A stretch of DNA of 21,244 nucleotides, taken from a virus. Where the stretch lies: IMG/VR virus record IMGVR_UViG_3300030106_000681, positions 1-21,244 of that record, one strand, 5' to 3'. The stretch's first letter is position 1. Every line of letters starts with the position of its first letter. The notes under the pieces were generated by a model. It saw only the letters and a list, made by a program, of their open reading frames with translations, made no database searches and was not told where the DNA came from. Below, piece after piece: positions 206 to 20,958 of the stretch. The position numbers and the translations under genes were made by a program.

Positions 206-783
206 TATTTCTTACCCCATTTAATGTCCAATAAACTATCATGGCTGTATTCCATACCAAAGTCCGTAGCAAATTCTCTTTGGAAACTTACTAGGTTGGT
301 ACGTCTACCATTCTTTCTATCAAAGTTAGCAAATTGGCTTGTTACTTCCAATGTTAATGTTGCTGTGTCGTCTGTGTCTGCTATTCTATATCCAGCTATT
401 TTGCCCTTGAATATTGTTATTGCTTGGTCGCCAGCACTATCACCTATAAGCGTTTCTGTTTCTGGATTTAGAAACACCCTTCTAATAGTTACGTTTTGGT
501 TTATTTGGTTTGACTTGGCAAGTGTTTGTACCGTGGTTAGGTCCAAGGCACTTAAAACAATATTAATACTTGTTATTTGTAAGTCCGCCGTCTCTTGGGT
601 TTCTGAGATGCCCAAAAAATTGCCTTGTGCTGAATAGGCTTGGCTGTTGTAGGTAACATCATAAGGTCCATCTGTAAAAAATAAATCAGTTGCGCCATTA
701 ACTCCAATATCAACTAATGTAAAGCTAATAAGTTCATCGCCAGCTAAATGACTGTTTTGTACGGAACTAAATTCTCTCGTCAT
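205..783 (-). CDS. Tail hub / distal tail assembly protein (DUF2163/gpL-like)
   Basis: The 192-residue protein has the pattern seen in phage tail-hub proteins that follow the tape measure. A YxVTYNSQAY-type segment near residue 41 is followed by LGISETQETADLQI, a region ending in IFKGKIAGYRI, and a C-terminal FDRKNGRRTNLVSFQREF box with DIKWGKK at the very end. In related phages the GRRTN...DIKWG ending is characteristic of a protein next to the distal tail subunit, probably at the baseplate-like tip. It starts at an ATG behind a GAGG ribosome site with 7-nt spacing, overlapping the previous stop as TAATG. It contains IGDSAGDQ, one of the DSAG motifs shared by virion proteins here. Exact hub position (gpL-like or gpM-like) is uncertain. 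Confidence 0.7.
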   Translation of the reverse strand: MTREFSSVQNSHLAGDELISFTLVDIGVNGATDLFFTDGPYDVTYNSQAYSAQGNFLGISETQETADLQITSINIVLSALDLTTVQTLAKSNQINQNVTIRRVFLNPETETLIGDSAGDQAITIFKGKIAGYRIADTDDTATLTLEVTSQFANFDRKNGRRTNLVSFQREFATDFGMEYSHDSLLDIKWGKK

Positions 784-1442
784 TAGATTGCCTCTATTAC
801 ATCTATTTCATATTCTACAAGTTCATCTGTTCTATAATTAAACTCTTGAACATCTCCATTTAATATCATTCTAAATGGTACGTTTGTTGAAGTAATTGCT
901 TCTTCATCTGTTAGTGATTCTACAAGTCCAGGCTTTATGTTAAGCACGGCGCCGCCTGCTGAATCCGTGTTAATGTCTGTTGATGCCATGTATACTTTTG
1001 TATGGCCAGCAAATCTTACAACATCACCTGCTTTTAACAATACTTGGTCACCTAGTGCCGTTCCTGCTGAGTCTGGTAGTGTTGTAATGTTTATAGTTGT
1101 ATCACCTGCTGAATGTGCCCCATCTACAAACAATCTACCATCTATTATTGATGCTATGCTTTGTCCTGTTGTAATGTCTTTTGCTTGTGATTCACTTACA
1201 ATTGGTATAACAATATCAAACTCATTTAGTCCACCATCTGTTTGTGCTATAAAAGCCTGTATTGGTCTAAATTCTGCTTGTGTCATTGGAGGAAAACGTA
1301 ATGTACCACCAAATATAGTCGTTGAATTTGTTGCTCTAATAATCCTGCCACTTGCGGCTTGTGTGCGTTTTACACTGGTGTTCATTTGAAAATTTACAGA
1401 TTGAAAACCAGGTGTTGTTGGAAATGTACCTATCAATGCCAT
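783..1442 (-). CDS. Distal tail / minor tail protein following the tape measure
   Basis: This 219-residue protein opens with MALIGTFPTTPGFQSVNFQ and contains RFPPMTQAEFRPIQAFI. It then has a beta-rich module with LLKAGDVVRFAGHTKVYM and ends in a VPFRMILNGDVQEF stretch. This is the layout of minor tail proteins common in marine siphophages and myophages, which carry an LKAGDFIKF-type loop and probably sit at the tail tip. It contains two DSAG motifs and one HSAG, at turns where I would expect DGSG-type turns in relatives. Its start overlaps the tape measure stop (TAATG); the ribosome site is weak, so translation is probably coupled. Structural assignment is good, but the exact tip position is not settled. 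Confidence 0.65.
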   Translation of the reverse strand: MALIGTFPTTPGFQSVNFQMNTSVKRTQAASGRIIRATNSTTIFGGTLRFPPMTQAEFRPIQAFIAQTDGGLNEFDIVIPIVSESQAKDITTGQSIASIIDGRLFVDGAHSAGDTTINITTLPDSAGTALGDQVLLKAGDVVRFAGHTKVYMASTDINTDSAGGAVLNIKPGLVESLTDEEAITSTNVPFRMILNGDVQEFNYRTDELVEYEIDVIEAI

Positions 1443-3919
1443 TATACTACACCCATCCTTCCTTGTTGTCTCATTGCGTTGTTAATAATACCAGTAATTG
1501 TTGCCCTTCTTTCTACAAGTAGGTCATCAAAGTCTCTTGCGTCTACAGTATTGATATTAAAGTTTACAGTAACTGGTTGATTGCGTCCTCCTAAGCCATC
1601 AATTGCTTCTGCTACCTCTCTTGGTATAACAGTTGAAGGTTGTCTTGGTACAATAAGCTCAGGACCATCCTCTCCAATCACCGCACTTTGTCCTGCCCTT
1701 AGAGCACCACCTCTTTGTGCTCCTACAGGATTTTGTGATCTAATTGTTGCTACCTGTGCCAAACCACCTGCTACCACAGCCGCCGCCGCAATAAAGTTAA
1801 ATGGCGGTGGATAAGTTGCTAATGCTTTTGTGGCACCTTGGTATGTGTTAATGATTGCTTCTGCTATAGCAAATGCTTTCATTGCCGCAAAAAACTGTTT
1901 GTTTTGTTTTCCTAATGCTTCAAAAAATCTTTTGCCTTGTCCTATACCAAAGTTTACTTTTTCAAGTTCTGACTTTTGTTCAAATTCTGTACGTTCTCTT
2001 ACACGATCTTCTATTTTCTTTTCTTGGCCTTGTTTTTGTAATACAGCAATATCTTCAGCACTTAGGATTTTGCTTTGACCTGTAACCACAGCCCTTACCC
2101 TAGCATCCATAGCCTCTTTTGCTTTTTTAAGTTTTTGATCTTCAATGTCAGCTAATTTGTTTGCCAACTCCAATTCTTGTTCCATGATTGTTTGTGCCAC
2201 ACTTTTGTTTGCGGCGTCTCTCAATTCATTGAACTTTTCTTGGCTGATTAAATTTTTATCCAATGCCTGTTGGAAAATGGCAATGTCAGCATCTGCGGCT
2301 TCTCTAGCAGATTCTTCAATTGTATGTGTAAATGATCTGTAAGTCTCCATAGAAGACTGTAATTTACTTTTCAGTGCGTCTAAGGCATCAGCGTCTTTCT
2401 TTTTCTTTTCTGTGGCAGTTTCAAAAGTTTTGCTTAACTTCTTCATCATGCCTTCATAAACTTCAAGAGTCAATGTGCCTTCATCAAATTTTTGTTGTAC
2501 TATAGCGGCTGTTTCCGCATTCAAGGCATTTTTTTCTACTACGCCATTTATGGAAATTAGTAATGTTTTATATGCCTTTTCTGCTTCAGTAAGGCTTTCT
2601 ACTGTTTTATCGTTGCCCTCAGTTTGTGTGTCTGTTGCCTTTTCTGCGGCCTTACGCAATTCTCTAAGTCTTGCTTCAATGTCTTTTACTTTTTTATCTA
2701 CTTCACCAAACGAAGTTACTACGTGGTCAATTGCTAAACCAATGTCTTGAATAGGATCAGGTACAAAGTCTTCTATGCCTTGTGTAACTTTCTTAAGCAT
2801 TTCATCTGTAACACCAACCTTGTTTAGAAATTTGTCAAATTCATCTGACAACATAGCCGCACCAGCAACGGCAAGTGATGCGCCAAGTATTAATGGATTG
2901 GCCTTTGCCGCCAGTGTAAGCATTTTTACAGCCCTTGTGGCAATTAATATTGACCTTGCTAATGTGCTACCAAAAGCTAAGGCAACGGCTGTTAGACCTG
3001 CTACAATTTTCAATCCAAAGAATATTCCAAATACAGTTATCAATATATCCATGTTTTGAATAACCAATTTTACCGCTTCAACAGTGAATAAGAATGCTTT
3101 TGTAAGTTTTGTACCTATGGACACAACAAATTCGTCATTTTCTGTAATAAGGTTTGTTATTTCTTTTGTAAGGTCACCAAGCGCCATTGAAAAGCCTTGT
3201 TGGGCTAATTTATCTGCGGCAATGTCTAGTGCTATATTGAAGTTTGAAAATGATGTACTTAAATTGTTAAGTCTTGCCTCTGTTGCTCCACCAAACTGTT
3301 CCCTAATGCCTTCACCTAATGCTTCTGTAATCTTTCTGGCACCTTCAGCACTTTTACCAAATTCAGATATTTGGTCTCTGGCAAGTCCTAATTTGTCTCT
3401 AAGGATAGTAAGGACAGGAACACCTCTATCACCTAATCTTTCTAATTCTTCAAGGCCCAAACCACCGCCTACTGTTCTACTAAACAAGTCTGTAATGGCT
3501 TGTAATGATCCTATTTGGTCAGTTGTAACAGCCGCGGCATCTGTAAATGTTGTAAGGAGTTCTTCTGTAGGTTCAATACCTGCTGTTTTTAGTTTAACAA
3601 ATGTATTTGTAAGATCTTCTATGCCAAACTGTGTTTTTGTTGAAAAATTAGATATGAATTCAAATGCTTGGGCGCCTTGGTTAGCACTTCCTGTGACACT
3701 ATTGAGTGTTGTTCGTAAGTCCTCAAAGCGTTGTGATACACTAACAACCCTTCTAATAATACTGGCACCACCAATGGCACCTAAAGCTGTTGCGGCTAGA
3801 CCAGCTACCCTGTTTACGCCAAGAAGACCTTTATTAAGGGCTGTAACCCTTTGTGAAATATTCTTTAGCGACGTAGCTGTCTTATCTAGTACGCGGATTT
3901 CTAATGTTTGCGTTGCCAC
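1442..3919 (-). CDS. Tape measure protein
   Basis: At 825 residues this is the longest gene, placed directly after the tail chaperone pair as expected. The N-terminal third is helical and Ala/Gly rich. A strongly hydrophobic block lies at about residues 275-358, as is usual for tape measures that insert in or cross the host membrane. A long charged coiled-coil region follows. The C-terminus has GGALRAGQSAVIGEDGPELI, a hallmark of phage tape measure proteins. It sets tail length by spanning the tail lumen with chaperone help; at about 1.5 angstroms per residue the tail would be roughly 120 nm (inference). The start is GTG, with AAGGAG 10 nt upstream. The first 38 nt overlap the frameshifted chaperone extension in another frame. 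Confidence 0.95.
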   Translation of the reverse strand: MATQTLEIRVLDKTATSLKNISQRVTALNKGLLGVNRVAGLAATALGAIGGASIIRRVVSVSQRFEDLRTTLNSVTGSANQGAQAFEFISNFSTKTQFGIEDLTNTFVKLKTAGIEPTEELLTTFTDAAAVTTDQIGSLQAITDLFSRTVGGGLGLEELERLGDRGVPVLTILRDKLGLARDQISEFGKSAEGARKITEALGEGIREQFGGATEARLNNLSTSFSNFNIALDIAADKLAQQGFSMALGDLTKEITNLITENDEFVVSIGTKLTKAFLFTVEAVKLVIQNMDILITVFGIFFGLKIVAGLTAVALAFGSTLARSILIATRAVKMLTLAAKANPLILGASLAVAGAAMLSDEFDKFLNKVGVTDEMLKKVTQGIEDFVPDPIQDIGLAIDHVVTSFGEVDKKVKDIEARLRELRKAAEKATDTQTEGNDKTVESLTEAEKAYKTLLISINGVVEKNALNAETAAIVQQKFDEGTLTLEVYEGMMKKLSKTFETATEKKKKDADALDALKSKLQSSMETYRSFTHTIEESAREAADADIAIFQQALDKNLISQEKFNELRDAANKSVAQTIMEQELELANKLADIEDQKLKKAKEAMDARVRAVVTGQSKILSAEDIAVLQKQGQEKKIEDRVRERTEFEQKSELEKVNFGIGQGKRFFEALGKQNKQFFAAMKAFAIAEAIINTYQGATKALATYPPPFNFIAAAAVVAGGLAQVATIRSQNPVGAQRGGALRAGQSAVIGEDGPELIVPRQPSTVIPREVAEAIDGLGGRNQPVTVNFNINTVDARDFDDLLVERRATITGIINNAMRQQGRMGVV

Positions 3920-4073
3920 GATTCATGCTCTCCTTACCTTTATTATGTTGTAGCTTGAACCAAGCATACCAAAGGTTTATTTCCAGGACACTGAGTTGTA
4001 AAACCTTCTCCAAAGGCATCGTAAGCGTTTCAGCTATACGCATTAACAATTGGAGCTCAATGTCCTCCTTTAG
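3882..4073 (-). CDS. Tail assembly chaperone, T-like extension made by -1 frameshift
   Basis: A second reading frame of 63 codons continues from the end of the upstream chaperone gene in the -1 frame. It begins with LKEDIELQLLMRI, contains LSVLEINLWYAWFKLQH and ends NIRNPRTR before a TAA. The aromatic WYAWFK segment after a helix is typical of the T half of lambda gpG/gpGT-type tail chaperones, which recruits the tail tube protein to the G-coated tape measure. It has no ribosome site of its own near the only ATG (4043), so expression is expected as a fusion of about 175 residues. It overlaps the first 38 nt of the tape measure gene. It is easily missed because it is not a free-standing ORF from a normal start. 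Confidence 0.85.
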   Translation of the reverse strand, partial: LKEDIELQLLMRIAETLTMPLEKVLQLSVLEINLWYAWFKLQHNKGKESMNRGNANIRNPRTR

Positions 4074-4408
4074 TTTTTTTCAACGGCCTCATATTCGCTT
4101 ATAGCGCCGTTGAGCTCAGTACAAACTTTTAACAATACCTTAGGATCAGCTTCATTCATTAACGCACTTTTGTCCATTCTTGTAAACATTGGCTTACCAT
4201 CTGGATCTAAAGCCTTTTGTATTAGGCTTTCAACCAATGCTTCAACAGTTTTGCCTGCTTGTTGAAGATTCAATATTCTTGATTCAACAGCAAACGGATA
4301 TGTTGCTTTGTAATAAATGTCTGTTTTCCATTCAGGTACTACTATTTTATTCAAGCCACCAGCCAACTGATCTTGGTAGTGTTGCTTTACGTTTTTCATA
4401 ACGCTCAT
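4070..4408 (-). CDS. Tail assembly chaperone (gpG-like)
   Basis: This 112-residue, largely helical protein sits between the tail tube and tape measure genes, the fixed position of tail assembly chaperones. It has a short beta-like start (IVVPEWKTDIYYKATYPF), then helices with TVEALVESLIQKALDPDGKP. The C-terminus (ISEYEAVEKN) ends on the slippery sequence. Such proteins coat the tape measure and keep it soluble before the tail tube polymerises. The ATG has AAAGGAG with 6-nt spacing and overlaps the previous gene's stop (ATGA). A second ATG, three codons on, is possible but lacks as good a ribosome site. Confidence 0.88.
   Translation of the reverse strand: MSVMKNVKQHYQDQLAGGLNKIVVPEWKTDIYYKATYPFAVESRILNLQQAGKTVEALVESLIQKALDPDGKPMFTRMDKSALMNEADPKVLLKVCTELNGAISEYEAVEKN
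4073..4079 (-). promoter_or_regulatory. -1 ribosomal frameshift slippery site A AAA AAC
   Basis: Read on the minus strand, the chaperone gene ends GTT GAA AAA AAC TAA. The heptamer A AAA AAC is in the exact phase (X XXY YYZ) needed for simultaneous -1 slippage, one codon before the stop. After slipping, the next codon is CTA and the frame stays open for 63 residues of T-like sequence. AGGAGG follows immediately, and a weak 4-bp GGAG/CTCC hairpin can be drawn a few bases downstream. Either may stimulate slippage, but neither is strong evidence. Confidence 0.88.
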
Positions 4409-4698
4409 TTATATCTCCTTTGTGATATCTCCCTAACGGTAGGCCCTAATATACCCCTAGGTGCTTGTTTTGAGTGACCTTTTTCTAAGACGTCAATGTA
4501 GGGCACACGGTTGACAACACGTTTCTCTTGAAACGCACTTTCTAGGCGCCAACCGCGTCTTGCTCGTCCTTTATCAATGGGCGTGTTTTTTACAGCCACG
4601 TCCTTTGTATCTTTGGCCACAAGGTCCATGAGTCTCTGTTTTTCTCGTTCAACAGAGGCCATTACCCTTTTATTGCCTAGAACCCTTATTTGTATCAT
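4405..4698 (-). CDS. HK97 gp10-like tail/neck protein
   Basis: This basic 97-residue protein has a central TPIDKGRARRGWRLE segment, then VVNRVPYIDVLEKGHSKQAP and RGILGPTVREI. A GRxRRGW box followed by V-N-x-V-x-Y-x-x-x-L-E-x-G-x-S-x-Q-A-P is the signature of HK97-gp10-like proteins, which act at the neck or tail-completion stage. It lies downstream of the tail tube gene, whereas gp10-type genes often lie upstream, which is a mild reordering. No good ribosome site is visible before the ATG; the preceding stop is only a few bases away, so coupled translation is likely. Confidence 0.8.
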   Translation of the reverse strand: MIQIRVLGNKRVMASVEREKQRLMDLVAKDTKDVAVKNTPIDKGRARRGWRLESAFQEKRVVNRVPYIDVLEKGHSKQAPRGILGPTVREISQRRYK

Positions 4699-4703
4699 TA
4701 CAA

Positions 4704-5117
4704 TTACGCGGCCGCAATCGTTAATGCTCCAGAACCTTGGAAGTTGACTGTAGCTGTGATAAGATCATCAAAACTTGCTGTTCTTGAAACAGAAGTTACA
4801 ACGACTGAACCACTAAACTTTTGTCCACCACCACTTGGTGCTGTTGTGTGGAATTCAACGGAAATTGCGCCATCGTTTGACGGATCAAAAGCGTTACTTG
4901 CCGCTGTGTGATCACTGTCATAGATTACTTCCATTGATCCAGTGAACTGATGTAGTCCACTCTTGTATGTTCTTGCCGCATCGCCCATGACTGTGTCTTC
5001 AATCACATCTTTTGTGTGTTCCACTGTCCAGGAACGAACTTCAGCAATAGTAGTTAGACCAGCTGTATCTTCGTGTGTGATATCAACTTGGCCTGCTTCA
5101 CCTGTAAATGTTGCCAT
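4704..5117 (-). CDS. Major tail (tube) protein
   Basis: The 137-residue beta-rich protein contains AEVRSWTVEHTKDVIEDTVM, a GDAARTYKSGLHQFTGSMEV stretch, a FSGSVVVTSVSRTASFDDLI region and NFQGSGALTI near the end. This matches the single-domain tube proteins of siphophages related to lambda gpV and TP901-1 MTP, which stack as hexameric rings. Placement before the chaperone and tape measure genes supports it. It has a strong ribosome site, AAGGAGG, ahead of the ATG. It carries DTAG near its N-terminus, a variant of the DSAG motif found in other virion proteins here. Confidence 0.9.
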   Translation of the reverse strand: MATFTGEAGQVDITHEDTAGLTTIAEVRSWTVEHTKDVIEDTVMGDAARTYKSGLHQFTGSMEVIYDSDHTAASNAFDPSNDGAISVEFHTTAPSGGGQKFSGSVVVTSVSRTASFDDLITATVNFQGSGALTIAAA

Positions 5118-5119
5118 GA

Positions 5120-5404
5120 TTATTCCTCCTTGTTGGCAGTTGTATCATCTTCGTCTTCTACTTGTTCTGGTGCGAGGTCTTTAAGTTCCTCGTAATCATT
5201 CCAAGCATAATCCGTAGATGTTTCTGAAGTCACTTGGGCATCCGCAGTAATTTTGTTCTTACTACTTTTGCGGGGTGACTTTTTTTCTGTTGGTTGGTCA
5301 TCAACTATTGTCCAACCTTGCTTCAGAAACCTTTGTACACGATCTTCCTCAACAGGAATGATCATGTTGTTATTATCTAACATTCTTGTATATTTTGTTG
5401 GCAT
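5120..5404 (-). CDS. Small acidic-tailed protein of the head-tail region, function unknown
   Basis: The 94-residue protein has an ordered N-terminal part (MPTKYTRMLDNNNMIIPVEE through FLKQGWTIVDDQ). A lysine/serine-rich linker and a very acidic C-terminal third (DLAPEQVEDEDDTT) follow. Small proteins with such a VEEDRVQRFLKQGW-like segment occur among connector and tail genes of phages, but I cannot name a function. It could be a small neck component or a chaperone. AAAGGAG precedes the ATG, the start overlaps the previous stop, and the tail tube gene starts 2 nt after its own stop, so it belongs to the tail operon. Confidence 0.75.
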   Translation of the reverse strand: MPTKYTRMLDNNNMIIPVEEDRVQRFLKQGWTIVDDQPTEKKSPRKSSKNKITADAQVTSETSTDYAWNDYEELKDLAPEQVEDEDDTTANKEE

Positions 5405-5853
5405 TATGTCGCTCCTTTAGTAAATGAGTAATGTACTTCCGCCACCATGTTAAATTCACCTAATGGTGGTGTTCTGTCCACTACAGTTATTTCAGTGACT
5501 CGCGTCGTTGCCGCACGAGCACTTGTCAAGTCCCTGTCTCTATTTGCGTTGAGCTTTTCTTCAATGCGTTCTATTAGTTCATTACGCTTTTCATCAACGC
5601 TTTGTACATGACCTTGACGTCCGTCTGAACGCACATATCCTCTAATGTTTATTTCTATGATGCCGCGTCTAGCACCACCCATGGCATGATCTTCTCTTGT
5701 TTCATTGCCTGTGGTTACTAATACTGCGGGAAACTGTGTAATTGCTAATTTGTCCACGTCAAATGGTTCACGTGTAACAAACGCTGGTCTAGGTGGAGCC
5801 ATGTCCCCTAAAACTTCTATAATGTTTTGTGTGATTGATTCTCTGTTTGACAT
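5404..5853 (-). CDS. Tail terminator / tail completion-like protein
   Basis: This 149-residue protein has an alpha/beta pattern. An N-terminal helix (SITQNIIEVLGDM) leads to a strand (FPAVLVTTGNE), then GIIEINIRGYVRS. A charged helix follows (EKRNELIERIEEKLNAN), and the final strands end EVHYSF. The order helix, I-E-I-x-I-x-G-Y-V, long helix, V-x-Y is shared by lambda gpU/HK97 gp9-type tail terminators and other small tail-completion proteins. Its position between the head-tail connector and the tail tube gene fits that role. The ribosome site is modest (AGG 11 nt upstream). The family call is by pattern and context, not by a diagnostic motif. Confidence 0.65.
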   Translation of the reverse strand: MSNRESITQNIIEVLGDMAPPRPAFVTREPFDVDKLAITQFPAVLVTTGNETREDHAMGGARRGIIEINIRGYVRSDGRQGHVQSVDEKRNELIERIEEKLNANRDRDLTSARAATTRVTEITVVDRTPPLGEFNMVAEVHYSFTKGAT

Positions 5854-5860
5854 TTACACT

Positions 5861-6313
5861 CTACCTTTTAAGGCGTAGGTAGTGTGTTGCTTCTCTTTCA
5901 ATGTCATCCACTGTACCACTACTGTCCGCATCATATTCCAATCCGTCTCTCAATACTAAATCCATTTCACGTTCATATTCTTTTCTATAGAACTCCATTT
6001 TACGTTCAAACAGATCAGTCTCTGGTTCAAATTTTGCTAATTTTGGATAGATGTGATATCCTAACGCATGATAGGCTGTTGCCCTCGTTAGTTGTGAAGC
6101 AGTATACAGGTCTTCGTCTGGCTCTAGGTTGTTACCAGCTAATTTTTTTATATCGTATACGTTGATTGAATAAGTGGGCCACCAGCGGATCCTAAGATCT
6201 CTAAAAACATCTGATTGTGCTTTTGTGATTTCAGCATCAAAGTCTTGGATGCCGTAGTTTAAAATATCTGGTTCGTAATCTTGTACGTCACTTATCGTTG
6301 CTAATGTTGGCAT
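5861..6313 (-). CDS. Head-tail connector (gp6-like adaptor)
   Basis: The 150-residue, mostly helical acidic protein sits immediately downstream of the capsid gene, the usual place of the gp6/gp15-type adaptor that forms a ring below the portal. It contains DFDAEITKAQSDVFRDLRI, then SQLTRATAYHALGYHIYP and a long charged helix (FERKMEFYRKEYEREMDLVL), which fits the helical connector fold. It begins a new block after a terminator and a GATAAATA motif 47 nt upstream, and has AGGAGG with 9-nt spacing. A DADSSGTVDDIE segment near the C-terminus resembles a calcium-loop-like turn, possibly by chance. Confidence 0.75.
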   Translation of the reverse strand: MPTLATISDVQDYEPDILNYGIQDFDAEITKAQSDVFRDLRIRWWPTYSINVYDIKKLAGNNLEPDEDLYTASQLTRATAYHALGYHIYPKLAKFEPETDLFERKMEFYRKEYEREMDLVLRDGLEYDADSSGTVDDIEREATHYLRLKR

Positions 6314-6360
6314 GAGGTACTTCCTCCTATTATGGTATAAGGTACTGCCCTATCCATGTA

Positions 6361-6368
6361 TATTTATC
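6361..6368 (-). promoter_or_regulatory. T4-late-like promoter motif GATAAATA before the connector-tail block
   Basis: On the minus strand GATAAATA is followed by TACATGG and lies 47 nt before the connector ATG. It sits directly downstream of the capsid terminator, so a fresh start of transcription here makes sense. The octamer differs from the T4 late consensus TATAAATA only at the first base, and the same GATAAATA occurs before two other minus-strand blocks. Promoter function is inferred from sequence and position. Confidence 0.6.
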
Positions 6369-6374
6369 TGTTAC

Positions 6375-6404
6375 AAAAGAATAGGGGGCAAAATCCCCCT
6401 ATTC
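6375..6404 (-). terminator. Rho-independent-type terminator after the capsid gene
   Basis: A perfect 10-bp inverted repeat GAATAGGGGG / CCCCCTATTC with a 6-nt loop lies at 6379-6404, 13 nt after the capsid stop codon. On the minus strand it is followed by TTTTGT. The stem has five G-C pairs, strong for this AT-rich DNA; the T tract is short. It should end or reduce transcripts carrying the highly expressed capsid gene. Confidence 0.85.
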
Positions 6405-6417
6405 AATATCTTTACGA

Positions 6418-7272
6418 TTACTGTTGATCGTCTGCGATTAACTTAACACCATATGTGTCAAATAGTTCTGCTGTACCATAAGCCATTGTACCAACGATTT
6501 CATCAGCTCTTGCTGAAGCATCTCTTTGTGTTTCAATTCTCATGTTACGCTTAACCATGTAACCAAGTGCGTCTTGAGACATAACAGCACCTACACCAGC
6601 ACCAGCTGAATCTGGTGTTGCGTCAGTAACTACTGTTGACTCAAAAATGTCAATACCAGCAAGTCTGCCTACGAAACCGTCTCTTAAAGCGATATTACCA
6701 ATGTCACTTAGGTTGTGTGACATAGTAGCACCTGCGTTAGTTAACACTTTCTTAAGCTGTAATGCTTGGTTTGGTGAAATAACAGCTACGTATGGTCCAG
6801 GAGCCTTGTTATTTTTCAGTGTAGCGGCCGCTTTGAAGAAAGTCTCTGTAGTAATTTCTTCTGCGCCAGAACCTACTGAATTTGAAAAGCCTTGGAATAA
6901 TGTAGCTAGATCTGTGTCCACCTTCACTGCCATTGCGTCACCCATTTGACGTCCAATAGCCGCGGCTACGTCTTCGTTAGCTGACTCTTTTGCCAAGTCA
7001 GTTAATTCAACCATAACACCTACTTCAGCGGCTGTAATAGTCTTTGAAGTTGTGTTAAAAGCTGTGTTTGACATATCAGTACCGTCTGTTAAAGCGGCGG
7101 CTGATAATGATGGATAGATTGGAACCTGTGCTGTTAAGCCTGGTGTTCCAGTCATATCATAGTTTTTGATAAGCGGTCTGATTACTGTTCTCTCTGAAAG
7201 AGTGAATAATGCCGCCTGTACCATATTAGCGTATAGTTCACTTAATACACTTGCGGTTGCTTCGTTTGCCAT
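6418..7272 (-). CDS. Major capsid protein
   Basis: This 284-residue protein follows the scaffold gene and is followed by a strong terminator. It opens with MANEATASVLSELYANMVQA, then VIRPLIKNYDMTGTPGLT and VPIYPSLSAAALTDGTDMSN, features of the N-arm and E-loop region of HK97-fold phage capsids. A long spine-helix region (DAMAVKVDTDLATLFQGFSN) follows. The C-terminal part has VAVISPNQALQLKKVL and MSQDALGYMVKRNMRIETQR, as in the P-domain and A-domain of related marine phage capsids. There is a strong AAAGGAG site. A PDSAGAGVG segment carries the shared DSAG motif. No separate prohead protease is seen beside it, so maturation cleavage is uncertain. Confidence 0.92.
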   Translation of the reverse strand: MANEATASVLSELYANMVQAALFTLSERTVIRPLIKNYDMTGTPGLTAQVPIYPSLSAAALTDGTDMSNTAFNTTSKTITAAEVGVMVELTDLAKESANEDVAAAIGRQMGDAMAVKVDTDLATLFQGFSNSVGSGAEEITTETFFKAAATLKNNKAPGPYVAVISPNQALQLKKVLTNAGATMSHNLSDIGNIALRDGFVGRLAGIDIFESTVVTDATPDSAGAGVGAVMSQDALGYMVKRNMRIETQRDASARADEIVGTMAYGTAELFDTYGVKLIADDQQ

Positions 7273-7296
7273 GTTGTTTCTCCTTTAGTAGCAAAT

Positions 7297-7989: not shown

Positions 7990-8048
7990 TATATACCTCT
8001 TTCTAATTGGTTGAGTTCTACCACCTGCCCTCTATTAGCAGTATGTTA

Positions 8049-8056
8049 TATTTATA
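8049..8056 (-). promoter_or_regulatory. Exact T4-late consensus TATAAATA before the scaffold-capsid block
   Basis: The minus strand reads GTATAAATATAAC in the 86-nt gap ahead of the scaffold gene, 59 nt from its ATG. TATAAATA is identical to the T4 late promoter element. The gap holds no other gene. The pairing of this motif with the two most highly expressed head genes supports a late promoter; activity is inferred. Confidence 0.6.
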
Positions 8057-8075
8057 CAATTAAGATAAAAACAAA

Positions 8076-9233: not shown

Positions 9234-9474
9234 TTATGCCCTCCCAACTTGGATGTTCTTGCCATCCTAGTGTTTTGCTACGTTCCAATATTTCCTTACG
9301 TCTTGTTCTACATAGATGGAACAGTTCCAGTAGATTTTTTCGTGCCCTCACGCCTGCCGCCTTAGAATCTTTTGTTTCAAATTTTTGTATGTTTTCATTA
9401 TACTCTGCCAACACTTGCCTAATGTGTTTTTCAGTGCCATGTATAAAGTCCCTATCTGGTACATACTTACCCAT
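9223..9474 (-). CDS. Small helical protein next to portal, function unknown
   Basis: From the ATG at 9474 the protein has 83 residues: MGKYVPDRDFIHGTEKHIRQ, then VLAEYNENIQKFETKDSKAA, then a very basic helix (RARKNLLELFHLCRTRRKEI). The R-x-R-K-x-L-x-E-L...R-R-K-E-I helix resembles small conserved phage proteins sometimes labelled histone-like; I cannot assign a function. It overlaps the portal stop by 8 nt. A TTG five codons upstream is an alternative start (9489), but the MGKYVPDRDF start sits 8 nt after GGGA and reads like a natural N-terminus. Confidence 0.75.
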   Translation of the reverse strand: MGKYVPDRDFIHGTEKHIRQVLAEYNENIQKFETKDSKAAGVRARKNLLELFHLCRTRRKEILERSKTLGWQEHPSWEGINES

Positions 9475-10978: not shown

Positions 10979-12228
10979 TAGTTATATCTCCTGTTATTGG
11001 CACTACCAGAAAATGCCCAACGTTGTGGTTCTGAAGTGGTGTGCTCTGTTCTAAGTGGGAACAAGAAGTCACACAAATAACCAACAGCATCTGCCATATG
11101 GTCCAATTCACCGTCCTTTTCAATAACGGACGTACCTGGTTTGTATACCATCTTTTCTAAACTACTTATTATGTTTCTACACTTTGGATCCACGAACAAG
11201 GTGCGTGTTCCCTGCGTGTTCTTTAATTTTGCGTTGACAGAATTTACCCTGTCTCTAACTGCTGTATGACTGTTTCTTGCCTTTACTGTGAATCCTGCGT
11301 TTTGTAGGATAGAAATATCTGTGCGTCCACCAGCGGATGTTTTTCTTTGTCTACCTGCTGGATCTGGATACATTATTATTCTTGAATTTGGATATCTACG
11401 TTTTAGTTCATCACAAGCTTCATCTGTGTTTGAGCCTCTGATACATATCTCATCTATAAAGTTAATTGTATTGCCTTCAATTACTGATATTGCTACACTC
11501 ATTGGATCAATGTTAAAGTCTATGCCGCAATGTATTTCTCTTGTGTCCATATTGTTACAAGGCATAATAGTTTGTTCTCTGTCAAAGTTGTAATAAACAA
11601 CACCAGAATAGGTTGTAAACGTTGCCAAGTATTCTTGTTCAAACGTTCTTTCATCCATGTCTCTTTTTGCCGCTTCAACTTCTGTAGCAGGAACTTGTCC
11701 ACCTTCTACAGTTGTGTATGTAAAACTTTCCCAGTCATTTGTTATGCCTGCCATTGAATACATTTCATGGCTCCATGATCCTACGCCTCTTGGTGTGCCT
11801 AAAAACAATGCGTGTCCATCCTTATCTGATAGGGTTGGTCTAAGCACTTCCGTAAATGCTTTTGGTTCAATGTCTTGAAATTCATCTAACACTAAAAAGT
11901 CCAATCCAACTCCTCTCAAACTGTCAGGAGCATCTGCTCCTTTTAAATATATTTTACTACCATTCTTAAGACGTAAGTACATCTCAGCTTCATTGGTAGC
12001 ATCTACCCAACGCAAGGACTTTAATCTATCCTTTAGTTGGTCCCAAACAATATTCTTTGCCATCCTGTAGCTGGGTGCTACATACCAAACCAACTTATCT
12101 GGTTGGCTGGCAAAACGTGCCAATTCTCTCATTGCCACGTGTGTCTTACCAAATCTACGTCCAGTTACCGCTACACGGAACCTAGCGTCTGATTCACAAA
12201 TGCTTTTTTGGGGGGTGCTCAAAGGCAT
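10978..12228 (-). CDS. terL: Terminase large subunit (ATPase-nuclease)
   Basis: The 416-residue packaging motor has a Walker A TGRRFGKT at residues 22-29, Walker B FLVLDE at 111-116 with catalytic E116, and a LGTPRG coupling motif at 143-148. In the RNase H-like nuclease domain, GIDFN carries D237, YPDPAG carries D289 and DHMADA gives D376/D380, so all expected acidic metal ligands are present. It packages DNA into the prohead through the portal and cuts it to length. The start has GGGAGG within the end of the small terminase gene. The short adenine-binding lead-in (MPLSTPQKSI) is typical. It appears intact and complete. Confidence 0.97.
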   Translation of the reverse strand: MPLSTPQKSICESDARFRVAVTGRRFGKTHVAMRELARFASQPDKLVWYVAPSYRMAKNIVWDQLKDRLKSLRWVDATNEAEMYLRLKNGSKIYLKGADAPDSLRGVGLDFLVLDEFQDIEPKAFTEVLRPTLSDKDGHALFLGTPRGVGSWSHEMYSMAGITNDWESFTYTTVEGGQVPATEVEAAKRDMDERTFEQEYLATFTTYSGVVYYNFDREQTIMPCNNMDTREIHCGIDFNIDPMSVAISVIEGNTINFIDEICIRGSNTDEACDELKRRYPNSRIIMYPDPAGRQRKTSAGGRTDISILQNAGFTVKARNSHTAVRDRVNSVNAKLKNTQGTRTLFVDPKCRNIISSLEKMVYKPGTSVIEKDGELDHMADAVGYLCDFLFPLRTEHTTSEPQRWAFSGSANNRRYN

Positions 12229-12549
12229 TTAGTCCTCCCAAGGTAATGGCATTTTATTTTCACTGTCCTCTGGTGTATCCTTCATACCAAGGTACTGCTT
12301 TGATAAGAAAATTTGAATCCTTGTGTCCCCGTTCATTGCCTTTTCCCACATAGCTCGCCTTAATGTTTTTTTGCCTTCTTGTTTGCCTTTGTCTAATATA
12401 CTTCCAAATCTTTTTCTTAAAGTTGCGGCAGTTGTTCCAACTACCTCAGCAATCTCTTGATCTGAGCATTGGATACAAGACAGTTTGTACACAAGATCTC
12501 TATCTATGGTCTTGTATTTCCTGTTTGTATTTTGCTCTTGTTTTGACAT
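12229..12549 (-). CDS. terS: Terminase small subunit
   Basis: The 106-residue protein lies directly before the large subunit. It has a helix-turn-helix-like segment (YKLSCIQCSDQEIAEVVGTT, then AATLRKRFGSIL). A second helical part (GKKTLRRAMWEKAMNGDTRI, then QIFLSKQYLGMKD) is the usual small terminase pattern. The acidic C-terminus (PEDSENKMPLPWED) probably contacts the large subunit. It recognises the packaging site on the concatemer and loads the motor. Its start overlaps the preceding stop as TAATG. Confidence 0.92.
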   Translation of the reverse strand: MSKQEQNTNRKYKTIDRDLVYKLSCIQCSDQEIAEVVGTTAATLRKRFGSILDKGKQEGKKTLRRAMWEKAMNGDTRIQIFLSKQYLGMKDTPEDSENKMPLPWED

Positions 12550-12881
12550 TATGCTTGTCTCTCCACGACTTTTACTCTAATGTTTCTTGAATCCTTTTTG
12601 CTGTTATCAGTAACAATCCTATACTCTACATTGTAAATGTTGCCTGCCGTACCAGCACTTAGAAATGCTGTAGCCAATGTATTTGTGTTTGTTGTACTGT
12701 CAACGGCCAATGGACTCCCATCTCCTGATATTGTTTCAACTGTTACTGTGGCACTTGATATAACTTCTCCACTTGGCATCCAGTTGGACCAATCCAGGGT
12801 GTAGTCAAGCACAGCGAATGGATCTTTTTCAATAAAAGCTCCTACTCTATCCTGCTTGAATCCTGTTAGTGTATGTCCCAT
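12549..12881 (-). CDS. Short conserved phage structural protein (fibre/tail adaptor type)
   Basis: The 110-residue beta-rich protein has KDPFAVLDYTLDWSNWMPSG near residues 19-38, then SATVTVETISGDGSPLAVDS and a C-terminal IYNVEYRIVTDNSKKDSRNI stretch. D-P-x-A-V-L-D-Y-x-x-D-W-S-x-W followed by an Ig-like strand pattern and R-I-x-T is a widespread phage protein type usually found between terminase or fibre genes. It is thought to be a virion component, with no exact role known to me. A strong AGGAG site precedes the ATG, which abuts the stop of the repeat protein (1-nt overlap). Confidence 0.72.
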   Translation of the reverse strand: MGHTLTGFKQDRVGAFIEKDPFAVLDYTLDWSNWMPSGEVISSATVTVETISGDGSPLAVDSTTNTNTLATAFLSAGTAGNIYNVEYRIVTDNSKKDSRNIRVKVVERQA

Positions 12882-14167
12882 TAACTTTCTCTCCTGTCTA
12901 GTGGATTGCCTTCTACCTCAACTAAAGTTAGGTGTTGAATCTGTAGCTTTCTGCTTTCAGAAGGTATGATTCTTGACCTAGATTCAGCCTCAATAGTATT
13001 TATACGATCTTCTGAATCCACCGTAAATTTCCGTGGTTCCTGTGCTATAACCAACGTTCTTTGTTCATTGTCTATTGTTAATACACGGAACGGATCTATG
13101 TTGTAAATTGTTAGTGCTGACACCACAGCCGCAAAGCCAGTTAGGTTTGCTGTACCAGTAAAGTTAGCGCCACCTATTGCTGATACTGTTGCTGTGCTTG
13201 TCAATGAGCCTGTAAAGCCTCTTGTTGCTGTTGGAGTTGAAGTTAATGTGCCTGTTGATGTTAATTCTAATGAAGGAGCAAATACTGGATTTGATATAGC
13301 ATTTACTGTTGCTGTTACCTGTAGATCTGCTTCTCCTACTGCTGTAAAGCCACCAATACCATTTAGTGTTGCTACACTATTGATGTCTATTTCACCAGTT
13401 TTAATTTTTCTAGCTTCTACAGATACTGTAGCAGAACTTGAAATGCTTGTGTCTGAGCCTCTTAGCCTATTGGCATCAATGCTGATTGTACCAAGGCTGG
13501 CAATAAGTGTTGTGCCTCTTTGTACAAGGTCACCATCTACTGTTACAGACGCAGAACTTGAAATATCTGCTTCAAACTGTTTTATTCTATTTGGTGTAGC
13601 TGAAACTGTGCCAAGGCTTGTAACAATGGCCGCTCCATTCAGTTGTTCTACCATTGTACAGCTTAGAGAAGCTGTTGCTGTAAGGTTAGCCGCCGCTATT
13701 TTTACTTTTCTGGCGTCAACTGCTACTGTGCCTGCCCATGTGTTTGGAGCCGCATCATTCCAAGTAGTTCTACCTGACCATGTATGGTTGTCACTGTCAA
13801 AGCCAGTAATGTCTGCTTGGCCTTGTTTGGTTTGTACACCTGCGGCCGTAACTGTAGCTGTAGTAGATAAGGTTAATTCACCTACTTTGGTTGCTACTGC
13901 TGTTACTGAACTTGATAATACACCACTTACGCTTACTTCTGCGTTTTTAGTTTGTGGTGCTGAACAGCTTACTGTTGCTGTTATACTGCTTGACGATTCG
14001 CCTTGCTGTATTCTTGTACAGGTTGCTGAAACTGTTGCTGTACTGGAGAGAGTTGCTTCTCCAAGTACTACTCCTGATACATAGCCATCTGCTACGTAGG
14101 AGCCAGTAACATAGTCGTCTGCTGTATAGCCTGAAGCTAGGTATATGTCACTGACATAGTTTGACAC
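12881..14167 (-). CDS. Repeat-built virion surface/fibre-like protein with 20-residue and 9-residue repeats
   Basis: The 428-residue protein has three parts. Residues 1-35 are Tyr/Asp/Gly rich (GYTADDYVTGSYVADGYVSG). Residues 36-356 hold about 15 tandem units, most exactly 20 residues (for example GEATLSSTATVSATCTRIQQ and GELTLSTTATVTAAGVQTKQ), with one 22-residue insertion around 123-150 rich in Trp and Asn. Residues 361-414 switch to a 9-residue period with Arg at 361, 370, 379, 388, 397 and 406 and Glu at the eighth place of the first five units. Such regularity suggests a beta-solenoid or fibrous rod; a virion decoration or fibre role is inferred. The start is GTG with AAGGGG 7 nt upstream. 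Confidence 0.8.
   Translation of the reverse strand: MSNYVSDIYLASGYTADDYVTGSYVADGYVSGVVLGEATLSSTATVSATCTRIQQGESSSSITATVSCSAPQTKNAEVSVSGVLSSSVTAVATKVGELTLSTTATVTAAGVQTKQGQADITGFDSDNHTWSGRTTWNDAAPNTWAGTVAVDARKVKIAAANLTATASLSCTMVEQLNGAAIVTSLGTVSATPNRIKQFEADISSSASVTVDGDLVQRGTTLIASLGTISIDANRLRGSDTSISSSATVSVEARKIKTGEIDINSVATLNGIGGFTAVGEADLQVTATVNAISNPVFAPSLELTSTGTLTSTPTATRGFTGSLTSTATVSAIGGANFTGTANLTGFAAVVSALTIYNIDPFRVLTIDNEQRTLVIAQEPRKFTVDSEDRINTIEAESRSRIIPSESRKLQIQHLTLVEVEGNPLDRRES
12997..13004 (-). promoter_or_regulatory. TATAAATA inside a coding region, possible weak late promoter
   Basis: The minus strand reads CGTATAAATACTA within the C-terminal part of the repeat protein gene, 115 nt ahead of the next gene, which leads into the terminase and portal genes. 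The octamer matches the T4 late element exactly. It is the only minus-strand copy of the core that lies in coding sequence, and in DNA this AT-rich a chance match is quite possible. Confidence 0.25.
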
Positions 14168-14189
14168 AATGGTTCCCCTTTAGTGTCTA

Positions 14190-14639
14190 TTATGCCAATG
14201 TTACTGATAGATTTCCTGCGGTAATCTGAAAAGTGTCACCAGACTCAATAGTCTTGGATGTTGTCAATGCCCCATAGAATAATACGTTTCCTGCTCCTGC
14301 TGAGTCATTGTCTTTGGCTTGTGCTTCAGCATCAATGATTGCTATGTGGGTAATAGTACCCCAATTGCCATCAGTTGCGGCAGGGAATGTAATGTTTCCA
14401 CTGTTGCTTACAGATCCACCAGATATGGTACCAAATGTTACTGATTGTCTTTGGTATCCACCACCTTGGCATTCATGTGTTAATGTGCCTGCTTCTAATA
14501 GTTCACCCGTTGCTCCTGCTGAGTCATCTGTATTAAACAGACCAACGAAAACTGTAGAAGGAGACGATGTGCTTTGTGCGTTGTTTTTAAGAAAGAAGTC
14601 TAATACTCTTTCCTCTAAAAAATTACTTGCGGCGCTCAT
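14190..14639 (-). CDS. Conserved phage virion protein (gp80-like, tail/fibre-associated)
   Basis: The 149-residue protein opens with a helix (SAASNFLEERVLDFFLKNNA). STVFVGLFNTDDSAGATGEL, a GGGYQRQSVTFG segment, NITFPAATDGNWGTITHIAI, NVLFYGALTTSKTI and a final FQITAGNLSVTLA follow. This ordered set (V-x-V-G-L-F, G-Y-x-R-Q-x-V-T-F-G, I-T-F-P-x-A-T, W-G-T-I-T-H, L-F-Y-G-A-L-T) is a common phage protein found among tail-fibre genes. It forms a small beta-rich domain probably on the virion. It contains two DSAG motifs encoded by identical codons. AGGAGG lies 7 nt from the ATG, and a CATAAATA motif 40 nt upstream opens this block. Confidence 0.75.
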   Translation of the reverse strand: MSAASNFLEERVLDFFLKNNAQSTSSPSTVFVGLFNTDDSAGATGELLEAGTLTHECQGGGYQRQSVTFGTISGGSVSNSGNITFPAATDGNWGTITHIAIIDAEAQAKDNDSAGAGNVLFYGALTTSKTIESGDTFQITAGNLSVTLA

Positions 14640-14679
14640 AGGTTAACCTCCTGATTATATATTGTATATCGCGATACAG

Positions 14680-14687
14680 TATTTATG
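14680..14687 (-). promoter_or_regulatory. Late-like promoter motif CATAAATA before the gp80-like/terminase block
   Basis: In the 58-nt gap between two fibre genes the minus strand reads ACATAAATACTG, 40 nt before the downstream ATG. It shares the ATAAATA core with the other gap motifs but has C at the first base. A 10-bp palindrome TATCGCGATA lies just downstream at 14667-14676, between the motif and the gene, and could be a binding site. Function is inferred. Confidence 0.45.
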
Positions 14688-14697
14688 TGTATTCTCA

Positions 14698-15315
14698 TTA
14701 TGTGTACTTAGATATGCGTATAAACGCTCTTCCTGACGTTGTGAAGTTGGTATCTGTAGTCACTTTGAATTCAATGTTTTTTGTGCCTGTAAGTGTGAAA
14801 ACTAAATTTGTATTAAAGTCTACGTTTGCGGTTTTTGGGTTAACTGTAGCAATTAAATCATCATCTGTGTCATTACGAACGTCAATTGTAGTTGTACCAG
14901 TGCCTTTGTCAATGGTTGATTCAAACTCCAACCAATATGTAGCCGCTGTTAAACTTATTTGATCATTGCTTATAGATATGAATCCAGCACCATCAAATAT
15001 TTCTGATAATGGTACTTTTAAGTTTGCTCCTGCCCTGTTACCAGCACTATCTAAATTTAAGTCTGTTGCGTCTGCCTTAATTATTGCCTGTTGCCCTGCC
15101 GCGCCTATTGACCCACTTGCTACCTGTTCAAATTTTCCTGTTGAACTAGAATATTGTAGTAAGTCTCCATCGCTTGGAGAACTAATGTTAAATTCATCTA
15201 TAATACTGTTTGTATTATCAATGTTTTGTTTTATGTCTGCCCTAGCGTTTGCTAACAAATCATTGCCATTGTCAACGTTGCTGGTTCCTGCTTTTGATCC
15301 TGATGGCCAACTCAT
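14698..15315 (-). CDS. Tail fibre-associated protein with jelly-roll-like C-terminus
   Basis: The 205-residue protein begins MSWPSGSKAGTSNVDNGNDL and has a helix to about residue 45, a start used by small virion-attached fibre proteins of marine phages. A linker with GDLLQYSSSTGKFEQV and a beta-rich C-terminal domain (SLTAATYWLEFESTIDKGTG through GRAFIRISKYT) resemble C1q/TNF-like jelly-roll adhesion domains. Receptor binding is plausible but not shown. It carries one DSAG (LNLDSAGNRAG) written with different codons from most others. GAGGAG precedes the ATG, which overlaps the preceding stop as TAATG. Confidence 0.65.
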   Translation of the reverse strand: MSWPSGSKAGTSNVDNGNDLLANARADIKQNIDNTNSIIDEFNISSPSDGDLLQYSSSTGKFEQVASGSIGAAGQQAIIKADATDLNLDSAGNRAGANLKVPLSEIFDGAGFISISNDQISLTAATYWLEFESTIDKGTGTTTIDVRNDTDDDLIATVNPKTANVDFNTNLVFTLTGTKNIEFKVTTDTNFTTSGRAFIRISKYT

Positions 15316-15506
15316 TATTTGTTCTCCTCAACGAATGTTTTTAATTCATCTATTGTGTTGAATACTTGTTCACTACCATCTGGCTTTACTATTGTACAAG
15401 GTGGTGTAAAGTTGTCAAACATATAAGTCGCTGTAGCATAAATTCCATCAAGGTCATGCTTTTCTATTGTAGGCCAACCTGTGCCTTTTATTGTGTATAT
15501 TGACAT
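15315..15506 (-). CDS. Small 63-residue protein in the fibre cluster, unknown function
   Basis: A short protein MSIYTIKGTGWPTIEKHDLD leads into a small alpha/beta body (YATATYMFDNFTPPCTIVKP) and a C-terminal helix (TIDELKTFVEENK). I do not recognise the family. It has a strong AAGGAG site, sits 9 nt after the LamG-like gene and overlaps the next gene by one base, so it is very likely expressed. Its size and location between fibre genes suggest a fibre assembly helper or small adaptor, which is a guess from context. Confidence 0.75.
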   Translation of the reverse strand: MSIYTIKGTGWPTIEKHDLDGIYATATYMFDNFTPPCTIVKPDGSEQVFNTIDELKTFVEENK

Positions 15507-15515
15507 TGTTTCTCC

Positions 15516-16397
15516 TTAACTTGGTTGTGGTCCGTCACCAGCCGCTATGTCAGTAAAGTCAACACCAGCAGAGCTTTTGTTTACCTTTGTAAGTGAGTAA
15601 GCATATCCTGTACCTGCGTTGGTAAAGAATGAGCTTGTGTCACCTGTGTGGAAAACAAGTGGTTGATCCAAACCACTGCCAGTTCCATCCGTGCCCATGT
15701 CCACTGCGCCGTTGTTGTAAAACTTTGCTCTTGTACTTGCGTCACTTATGTCATTAAAACTGTTGTCCAAATATAATTGTGTTAATTGGTTTGGCCATTG
15801 TCCACTACCACTGTCAAAAACTTCCGCACACAGCGTAAATTGGTTATAGTGATTACCTTCCCAATAGTTTTCTGTAAAACGTTTTTGTGCGCCTAGATAC
15901 TGTGTAGCGTTTTGTGATCCTTGTGTTATTTCTGTGCCATCAACATACAATTCAAATTTGCTTGTTGATCCTTTAGCTGATACCAAGTAATGATGCCAGT
16001 TGCCATCATCATACGTACCATTGCCATATGATCCACCACTAAATCCATCAACACCGTGTCTAATGTCCAAATCAAATGTGCTATCACTTCCAGACCTTGC
16101 TAACAGTCTTGTTGATCCCCTAAAATAGTTGAACTGTAAATATTCATTACCACCTGTGTTAATAAATCTAAACAATGCGTCTTCGTGTGCGTATGTTGTT
16201 CTATTGTTTGTGTCTTTCCACCAAAATGCTAATGTAAGTTCATCAGTGTCTGATGTTGAGGCAAAAGAGTTTGTTTGATAAAATACATGACCTTCTCCTT
16301 GTGTACTGTCAGCATCAAGTTGTATGCCTGCCAGTCCTGAAAAAGGTGTTGTTAAAACTCTTGAAAGTGTGTTTAATCTACTTGCTCCTAAAGGCAT
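15516..16397 (-). CDS. LamG/concanavalin A-like lectin-domain fibre protein
   Basis: The 293-residue protein is predicted to be a beta-sandwich. DELTLAFWWKDTNNRTTY, an FNYFRGSTRLLAR stretch and DDGNWHHYLVSAKGSTSKFE followed by LYVDGTEI make up the strand pattern of the LamG/concanavalin A-like fold, in which W-H-H-Y/V and L-Y-V-D-G are hallmark elements. It probably binds host-surface glycans as part of a receptor-binding fibre. The C-terminus includes KSSAGVDFTDI, a near-DSAG motif. AAGGAG lies 5 nt before the ATG. It follows directly after the tail fibre gene and is co-transcribed with it. Confidence 0.8.
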   Translation of the reverse strand: MPLGASRLNTLSRVLTTPFSGLAGIQLDADSTQGEGHVFYQTNSFASTSDTDELTLAFWWKDTNNRTTYAHEDALFRFINTGGNEYLQFNYFRGSTRLLARSGSDSTFDLDIRHGVDGFSGGSYGNGTYDDGNWHHYLVSAKGSTSKFELYVDGTEITQGSQNATQYLGAQKRFTENYWEGNHYNQFTLCAEVFDSGSGQWPNQLTQLYLDNSFNDISDASTRAKFYNNGAVDMGTDGTGSGLDQPLVFHTGDTSSFFTNAGTGYAYSLTKVNKSSAGVDFTDIAAGDGPQPS

Positions 16398-16406
16398 AGT
16401 GTCTCC

Positions 16407-17222
16407 TTAACTAAAGTTTGTGCTTAAAGAACCAAAGTAGTCTGTCCCATCATAAAAAATAGTTAGGATGTCTACAGCATTTCCTGAGGTTGATAGTGTG
16501 CCAGTTCCTCCAGCAAATTTTAATCTTCCTGCTGAGTCTTCTGTAAGTAATCTGCTACCTGTACTATCCTGCTTGATAATAAGTGTAACACTCTGTCCTG
16601 GTTCTTCATTTGTAAAACCACTGAACTGTGTGTTGCCTGTCAACGTCACTGTTTGTACATTGCCGTTTGCCACGTCTGGTGATAGTACAGCATTGTATGA
16701 TAAACTAAAAATTGTTTCCTTGTAGTTTATTAACTGTGCGTCATCTAGTTTCTGACCTGAAAGCACTACCTTACCACTTCCGTTTGGTGCTATTGTTATA
16801 TTTCCGTTTGATGCTGAAACAATTGAATTGCCGTTAACATCCAAGTTGCCACCAAGCTGTGGTGAAGTATCTGCTGATATGTCATCAACTGTGATTGTAA
16901 AAGCACCAGCTGAATCTGGTTGTGTTACAGCAATACCTGATCCACCAACTATTTGTGTGTCTCCTGAACCTGTAAAAGTAATTACAGTTTCACCAGCTGA
17001 ATCACTTGAAATTGCTGTTGATACTGAGCCTGCGCCAGTAAATTGTAAAATTGAATCTTTGTCTGCTTCACCTAGTGTAAGACTTGAACCACTGTCAGCT
17101 TTTACTTCAACAGTTCCTTGTCTTAATAGATGTACAAAGTTATTGTCCAGCTCCTGGAATGTTAACGCACTACCTTTGGTAGTTGCTCCAGTGGCTGATT
17201 CTTGTCTAAGGGTAACGGTCAT
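16407..17222 (-). CDS. Tail fibre protein with three DSAG motifs
   Basis: The 271-residue protein has a conserved-looking virion-attachment start (MTVTLRQESATGATTKGSAL, then TFQELDNNFVHLLRQ). A middle section of short Gly/Ser/Asp-rich beta repeats and a C-terminal domain ending ILTIFYDGTDYFGSLSTNFS follow. Both ends are familiar from marine phage tail fibres. The middle contains PQLGGNLDVNGNSIVSASNG and NITIAPNGSGKVVLSG, also common in such fibres. DSAG occurs three times. AAGGAG precedes the ATG and a GATAAATA motif lies 32 nt upstream. It probably anchors adhesion proteins encoded just downstream; attachment function is inferred. Confidence 0.8.
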   Translation of the reverse strand: MTVTLRQESATGATTKGSALTFQELDNNFVHLLRQGTVEVKADSGSSLTLGEADKDSILQFTGAGSVSTAISSDSAGETVITFTGSGDTQIVGGSGIAVTQPDSAGAFTITVDDISADTSPQLGGNLDVNGNSIVSASNGNITIAPNGSGKVVLSGQKLDDAQLINYKETIFSLSYNAVLSPDVANGNVQTVTLTGNTQFSGFTNEEPGQSVTLIIKQDSTGSRLLTEDSAGRLKFAGGTGTLSTSGNAVDILTIFYDGTDYFGSLSTNFS

Positions 17223-20902: not shown

Positions 20903-20921
20903 TTCACTTTCTCCTATAATA

Positions 20922-20940: not shown

Positions 20941-20958
20941 TTAACGTTACCAAAACGG

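Follow-up and report, generated by a model that had tools for sequence, protein, structure and literature searches.

A four-residue peptide, DSAG, recurs at about ten copies per genome in a group of aquatic bacterial viruses, and we regard it as well supported that the clade as a whole uses it as a sequence-specific tag, placed on a particular set of virion proteins. Its most likely use, to which we give a probability of roughly 0.4, is modification of the serine, probably by a sugar that the phages' own gene cassette adds.

The stretch of DNA analyzed here (“the window”) is a 21,244-base IMG/VR virus record that carries the entire virion module on its minus strand: terminase, portal, scaffold, major capsid, tail tube, tape measure, distal tail, hub, gp80-like, and fibre proteins. 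The nearest annotated relative is Phage DSL-LC06 (OR003941), with a capsid identity of 72%, and the pelagiphages HTVC026P, 111P, 112P, and 202P are more distant. DSL-LC06 was reported to belong to an orphan cluster of uncultivated viruses for which Pseudomonadota hosts are predicted (PMC10611076).

Table 1. DSAG copies, the genes that carry them, and candidate cassette genes in the window
Feature	Position	Strand	Observation
Hub-like gene	205-783	minus	
DSAG in hub-like protein	430-441	minus	DSAG at the matching site in 8 of 15 divergent genomes
Distal tail gene	783-1442	minus	
DSAG in distal tail, strand-connecting loop	954-965	minus	homologues have DTAG, DGSG, NGSG, and others there
DSAG in distal tail, loop insertion relative to relatives	1062-1073	minus	from alignment
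Major capsid gene	6418-7272	minus	
DSAG in major capsid	6601-6612	minus	DSAG in most clade members
gp80-like gene (phrog_240)	14190-14639	minus	
DSAG in gp80-like protein, loop insertion	14295-14306	minus	from alignment
DSAG in gp80-like protein, N-terminal site	14514-14525	minus	common to 12 of 15 divergent genomes
Fibre-associated gene	14698-15315	minus	
DSAG in fibre-associated protein	15040-15051	minus	
Tail fibre gene	16407-17222	minus	
DSAG in tail fibre	16527-16538	minus	
DSAG in tail fibre, TQPDSAGAF context	16905-16916	minus	context recurs in relatives
DSAG in tail fibre	16992-17003	minus	
Cassette gene A2, DUF115/MptE-like predicted fold, GNG[AP]S motif	17681-18250	minus	candidate sugar-handling or sugar-transfer enzyme
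Cassette gene A3, KpsC-like	19380-20342	minus	candidate glycosyltransferase
Further cassette gene	20306-20974	minus	DSL-LC06 homologue annotated as glycosyltransferase; only in some members

An initial sequence-only reading of the window had listed ten in-frame DSAG copies in six predicted virion proteins. All ten lie where it had placed them, in frame on the minus strand (Table 1), and a six-frame search of the window found DSAG nowhere else. The near variants that it mentioned are present as well (HSAG at 1104-1115, DTAG in the major tail protein, and SSAG in the product of 15516-16397), and the terminase, portal, scaffold, and accessory genes of the window indeed contain no DSAG, to which we add the tape measure. 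The accompanying estimate that well under one copy would be expected also stands, since the composition of each protein predicts 0.19 copies in the 6,624 residues of the window. Mono-residue shuffles (n = 1,000) gave at most two copies of DSAG and first-order Markov shuffles at most four; the highest count for any tetrapeptide in the 1,000 mono-residue shuffles was six, which is also the count of TATV, the second most frequent tetrapeptide of the window. The Poisson probability of ten or more copies is 1.6e-14, or about 2.5e-9 when corrected for all 160,000 tetrapeptides. Altogether, the shuffles and the Poisson estimate rule out chance or composition as the source of the ten copies.

The excess is a property of the clade. 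In relatives retrieved with capsid, portal, and hub sequences, where a count had been proposed as a check, the longer DSAG-rich members have 7 to 16 copies per near-complete genome versus 0.2 to 0.3 expected, and DSAG is the top or joint-top tetrapeptide in nearly all longer clade members examined. Across 61 DSAG-rich contigs, we counted 363 copies in about 101 unrelated contexts and 36 DNA spellings. On a concatenated tree, the DSAG-rich genomes and a nested DSAG-poor group form one clade, whose sister is a set of five DSAG-free genomes (G063, G065, G067, G069, and G072). The pelagiphages branch outside. The five DSAG-free genomes encode homologues of the virion families that bear DSAG in the clade. 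The DSAG-poor members (the G007 clade) form a single nested group with full support on the capsid tree. They retain just the hub copy, at the site corresponding to 430-441, with occasional DSSG, and when we looked for a substitute motif in this group, none stood out. A literature search for DSAG in phages returned nothing relevant.

We also considered whether the motif might be shared with a host or paralleled elsewhere. One DSAG-rich phage contig (G035:C59; L316, L317; NZEU01000001) is binned in a Porticoccaceae metagenome-assembled genome, which may not be its host. This is the sole bacterial bin holding a contig of a member, and a host-wide motif was rejected because the rest of the bin shows no DSAG excess, subject to the same doubt about the host. 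Pelagiphage fibre proteins contain eight to nine copies of NTTG (L043, HTVC111P, 24562-26997; L044, HTVC112P, 26168-28438). These were set aside as a parallel, given that each copy is part of the repeats inside a single fibre protein.

The distribution among protein families is sharply divided. In 17 near-complete genomes, including the DSAG-poor G007, the capsid, tail-tube, distal-tail, hub, tip, gp80-like, and fibre families contain 158 DSAG in 48,375 residues. The tape measure, portal, terminase, scaffold, chaperone, terminator, head-completion, enzyme, cassette, and some other families contain none in 57,870 residues; the density of the DSAG-bearing families would predict about 189 in them. 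A similar density in non-virion proteins would have spoken against a virion-specific motif; the non-virion families of these 17 genomes have no copy at all. We call the DSAG-bearing families exterior from their names and from what is generally known of how phages are built. One family of the tail and fibre region is an exception to the pattern in having no DSAG. Its member in the window (12881-14167, minus strand) is a 428-residue protein with repeated TATV/ATVS strands, is found in 17 of 17 near-complete genomes, and had no match in PHROG or Pfam.

The motif is also strict. Comparing observed with expected counts over 17 genomes, we found 176 copies of DSAG versus 4.4 expected (39.8x) and 50 of DS[ST]G versus 10 (5.0x). 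The other variants show no excess: DSA[^G] occurs 57 times versus 51 expected (1.1x), DT[AST]G 17 versus 18 (1.0x), ES[AST]G 5 versus 10 (0.5x), NS[AST]G 14 versus 13 (1.0x), and DS[ILVM] 156 versus 152 (1.0x), while DT[ILVMTAS] stands at 0.8x. Among turn equivalents, DTAG, NSAG, DASG, and DATG do not exceed expectation or do so just slightly, DAAG does not exceed it, and DG[AST]G shows a modest excess (2.7x). The ratios therefore indicate that the motif needs Asp, Ser, and Gly, with Ala at the third position and, less often, Ser or Thr. Flanking residues show weak preferences and no strong consensus across the roughly 101 contexts.

DSAG sites turn over, while their number per genome stays roughly steady. 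Among 15 divergent genomes, 45 alignment sites have DSAG: 24 occur in a single genome each, and the most widely shared site is found in 13. The sequence-only reading had asked whether DSAG is inserted or replaces other turns, and the alignments reveal gains of both kinds, by loop insertion and by substitution. For instance, the distal-tail loop at 1062-1073 is shorter in every aligned member outside the group formed by the window, G002, and G003, and the capsid site at 6601-6612 reads ASAG in the DSAG-poor clade and GTTG, GNAG, or GTGG in pelagiphages. At DSAG columns, relatives have other turns of the form D[GST][AST]G, and since this replacement is tolerated, no single site is essential. Many sites resemble hairpins between predicted strands in the alignments, and several fall in proline-rich linkers, among them three tandem copies eight residues apart in the G048 hub (28089-30602, L210; pvDSAGtpivDSAGipivDSAGettpg) and one in G050 (pdpeDSAGptptptpppp). 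The sites are thus placed, as judged from sequence, where surface exposure would be expected.

At the DNA level, the ten copies of the window are spelled as the sequence-only reading described, with GACTCAGCAGGA four times, GATTCAGCTGGT three times, and GATTCAGCAGGC, GATAGTGCTGGC, and GATAGTGCTGGT making up the rest. Both serine codon families (TCN and AGY) occur at 16 of 21 shared sites. Ordinary conserved serine columns mix the two families as much as DSAG columns do; consequently, the mixing argues against recent copying of DNA and adds no extra evidence for selection, and we dropped it as special evidence of that kind. Of the two origins proposed for the shared spellings, protein-level selection is supported by the 36 spellings in about 101 unrelated contexts on 61 contigs, by the use of both codon families, and by the lack of a strong flanking consensus. 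The other, that a short DNA segment was copied around the genome and diverged by drift with no role at the protein level, would account for the identical spellings in the window, but the same diversity of spellings and contexts, together with flanking DNA that shows no similarity, leaves it unsupported. In addition, DSAG never occurs in internal or non-virion families, and the window has no tandem repeats and no copy in another frame or in non-coding DNA, so that we consider this origin highly improbable.

Two cassette genes, A2 and A3 (Table 1), co-occur with the motif. They adjoin the fibre genes and are present across the DSAG-rich near-complete genomes; the truncated G002 yielded only a weak, divergent A2 match, with A3 not found, and the A2 of G048 was seen on a wider search. 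Neither gene was found in 13 DSAG-free relatives, of which five (G063, G065, G067, G069, and G072) were checked gene by gene, or in four pelagiphages. The AF2 model of A2, a protein of about 185 residues, has a pLDDT of 87 and matches DUF115 (E 4.4e-4) and MptE-like (E 1.2e-3) models in BFVD with TM of 0.54 to 0.56, the closer matches being unnamed phage proteins; it also matches GT29 viral models, weakly. Searches with A2 gave no PDB structure match, no sequence match, and no Pfam profile match. The model of A3 has a pLDDT of 61 overall with a poor N-terminal third, and the first PDB fold match of this low-confidence model is KpsC (8fuw, E 2.6e-3), over the C-terminal half. The A3 homologue of DSL-LC06 is annotated as a KpsC-type protein, and no KpsC sequence match to A3 was found in Pfam, NCBIfam, or PDB. 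We know of no protein substrate for A2 or A3.

The motif and the cassette were gained on the same branch of the tree, and their association therefore counts as a single event. The G007 clade has both A2 and A3, with DSAG only in the hub. An A2 homologue also occurs in the unrelated Kyanoviridae phage C48C1 (OQ984149.1, 102720-103382; L329:17721-18383), where no DSAG was found in the 111 kb examined; there, it clusters with a glycosyltransferase and a Nol-like carbamoyltransferase. Homologues of A3 lie in a sugar gene cluster on another contig of the Porticoccaceae bin (G035:C8, 21044-22358; L328), adjoining asparagine-synthase-like and nucleotide-sugar dehydratase-like genes. The cassette could instead alter host lipopolysaccharide.

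Other candidate enzymes fared less well. A GNAT-like acetyltransferase gene lies between two hub genes (window 2-205, minus strand; homologue L041:24979-25464), a position occupied in the pelagiphages HTVC026P, 111P, and 112P by an RTX-toxin-type lysine acyltransferase gene, and neither of these genes tracks DSAG. The GNAT gene was rejected as the modifying enzyme since the DSAG-rich genomes G008 and G019 lack it and DSAG-free relatives have it. An FkbM methyltransferase and other partner genes were rejected since they occur in only part of the DSAG-rich genomes.

Several readings of these results compete, and we rank serine modification by the cassette ahead of a structural turn and of docking, which we place level, and these ahead of some other modification. 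DSAG might be a favoured beta-turn filler (a type I turn with a G1 bulge) in beta-rich virion proteins, brought to its present number by lineage history and changes in loop length. Such a filler would fit the many copies that lie between predicted strands, often as hairpin insertions, the other D-small-small-G turns that homologues have at the same columns, and the mild enrichment of DG[AST]G. Against this, the turns DTAG, DASG, DATG, and DAAG do not exceed expectation and NS[AST]G does no more than match it, DSAG also occurs in proline-rich linkers, and the DSAG-free relatives manage without it in their homologous virion proteins. As such, the preferred surface turn suggested in the sequence-only reading is insufficient, and we consider a turn filler unlikely. 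The proteolytic site that was suggested alongside it fits poorly too, given that copies lie inside conserved domains and that all of the roughly 100 contexts are more than 12 residues away from either terminus. Of the suggested meanings, a recognition or modification tag fits best.

A tag need not be modified, and it could serve as a docking motif for a decoration protein, a chaperone, or a host surface molecule, as would suit a strict short motif that is confined to certain virion proteins and turns over in position at a steady number per genome. No candidate binder emerged, however: apart from the cassette genes, every family conserved throughout the DSAG-rich genomes also occurs in DSAG-free relatives. 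Moreover, the selectivity is largely for Ser over Thr, which would be more typical of a modified residue, and docking thus seems to us as doubtful as the turn. The same motif evidence would equally suit another serine modification (phosphorylation, acylation, or a crosslink) introduced by an enzyme of the host or by a phage enzyme outside the cassette, and the G007 clade and C48C1 indicate that the cassette genes alone do not predict DSAG. The distribution of the GNAT gene removes that enzyme from consideration, and the sole available bacterial bin, which may not be the host, has no DSAG excess, leaving a modification of this kind rather improbable.

For serine modification by the cassette, which we prefer, we infer the following course. 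DSAG would act as a short linear recognition tag that the clade writes into loops and linkers of exterior-looking virion proteins, and the serine of the tag would be the acceptor for a modification, probably O-glycosylation. The enzymes would be those of the phage's own sugar cassette, namely the KpsC-like A3 and the DUF115/MptE-like A2 with variable partners. The whole particle would then carry a repeated modification, which could mask it or adjust adsorption.

There is precedent for parts of this scheme. Phage virions can be glycosylated, as in the capsid and tail-tube of mycobacteriophages, and the present case may be similar, with candidate glycosyltransferase genes near structural genes (A3, KpsC-like by a weak match, and A2, DUF115-like) and with capsid and tail proteins as the would-be substrates. 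To our knowledge, no short motif is repeated over all outer proteins of those glycosylated virions. DUF115 domains occur in Maf flagellin glycosyltransferases, and Maf enzymes modify Ser/Thr of cytoplasmic proteins. The modeled fold of A2 resembles DUF115 and MptE-like proteins and, weakly, GT29 models, a resemblance that points toward the Maf/DUF115 flagellin glycosyltransferases and GT29/GT42 sialyltransferases; unlike the Maf/DUF115 enzymes, it is short and has no sequence or PDB match. Similarly, the C-terminal half of modeled A3 is like the KpsC beta-Kdo transferase in its first fold match, but A3 is a single short copy with a low-confidence model, and no complete capsule gene set was recognized alongside it.

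The nearest known modification rule is the general protein O-glycosylation of Bacteroidota, with the motif D-(S/T)-(L/I/V/T/A/S/M) (PMC12871550). Both motifs are very short, have Asp just before Ser, allow Ala, Ser, or Thr next, and recur on many substrates, and the requirement for Asp is shared, with ES[AST]G and NS[AST]G at 0.5x and 1.0x versus 39.8x for DSAG. Here, by contrast, Thr is not accepted in place of Ser (DT[AST]G, 1.0x; DT[ILVMTAS], 0.8x), L/I/V/M are not enriched after it (DS[ILVM], 1.0x), and Gly is needed at the fourth position, which is free in the Bacteroidota sequon (DSA[^G], 1.1x). These differences in Thr, L/I/V/M, and Gly rule out the Bacteroidota sequon itself. In addition, the Bacteroidota system acts in the periplasm on exported proteins, while the virion proteins here assemble in the cytoplasm. 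More tentatively, it is possible that the phages have a serine O-glycosylation system of their own, in which a DS(A/S/T)G sequon in most outer virion proteins receives a sugar from the compact cassette, and the number of sites rather than their position is selected.

A second, different and stricter serine motif across the virion, which relatives sharing those virion genes lack, would amount to a new code. How widely phages modify their particles becomes testable from sequence alone, and the clade offers a four-residue tag with a small set of candidate enzymes. More generally, scans of phage proteomes for over-used short peptides can expose modification or docking systems.
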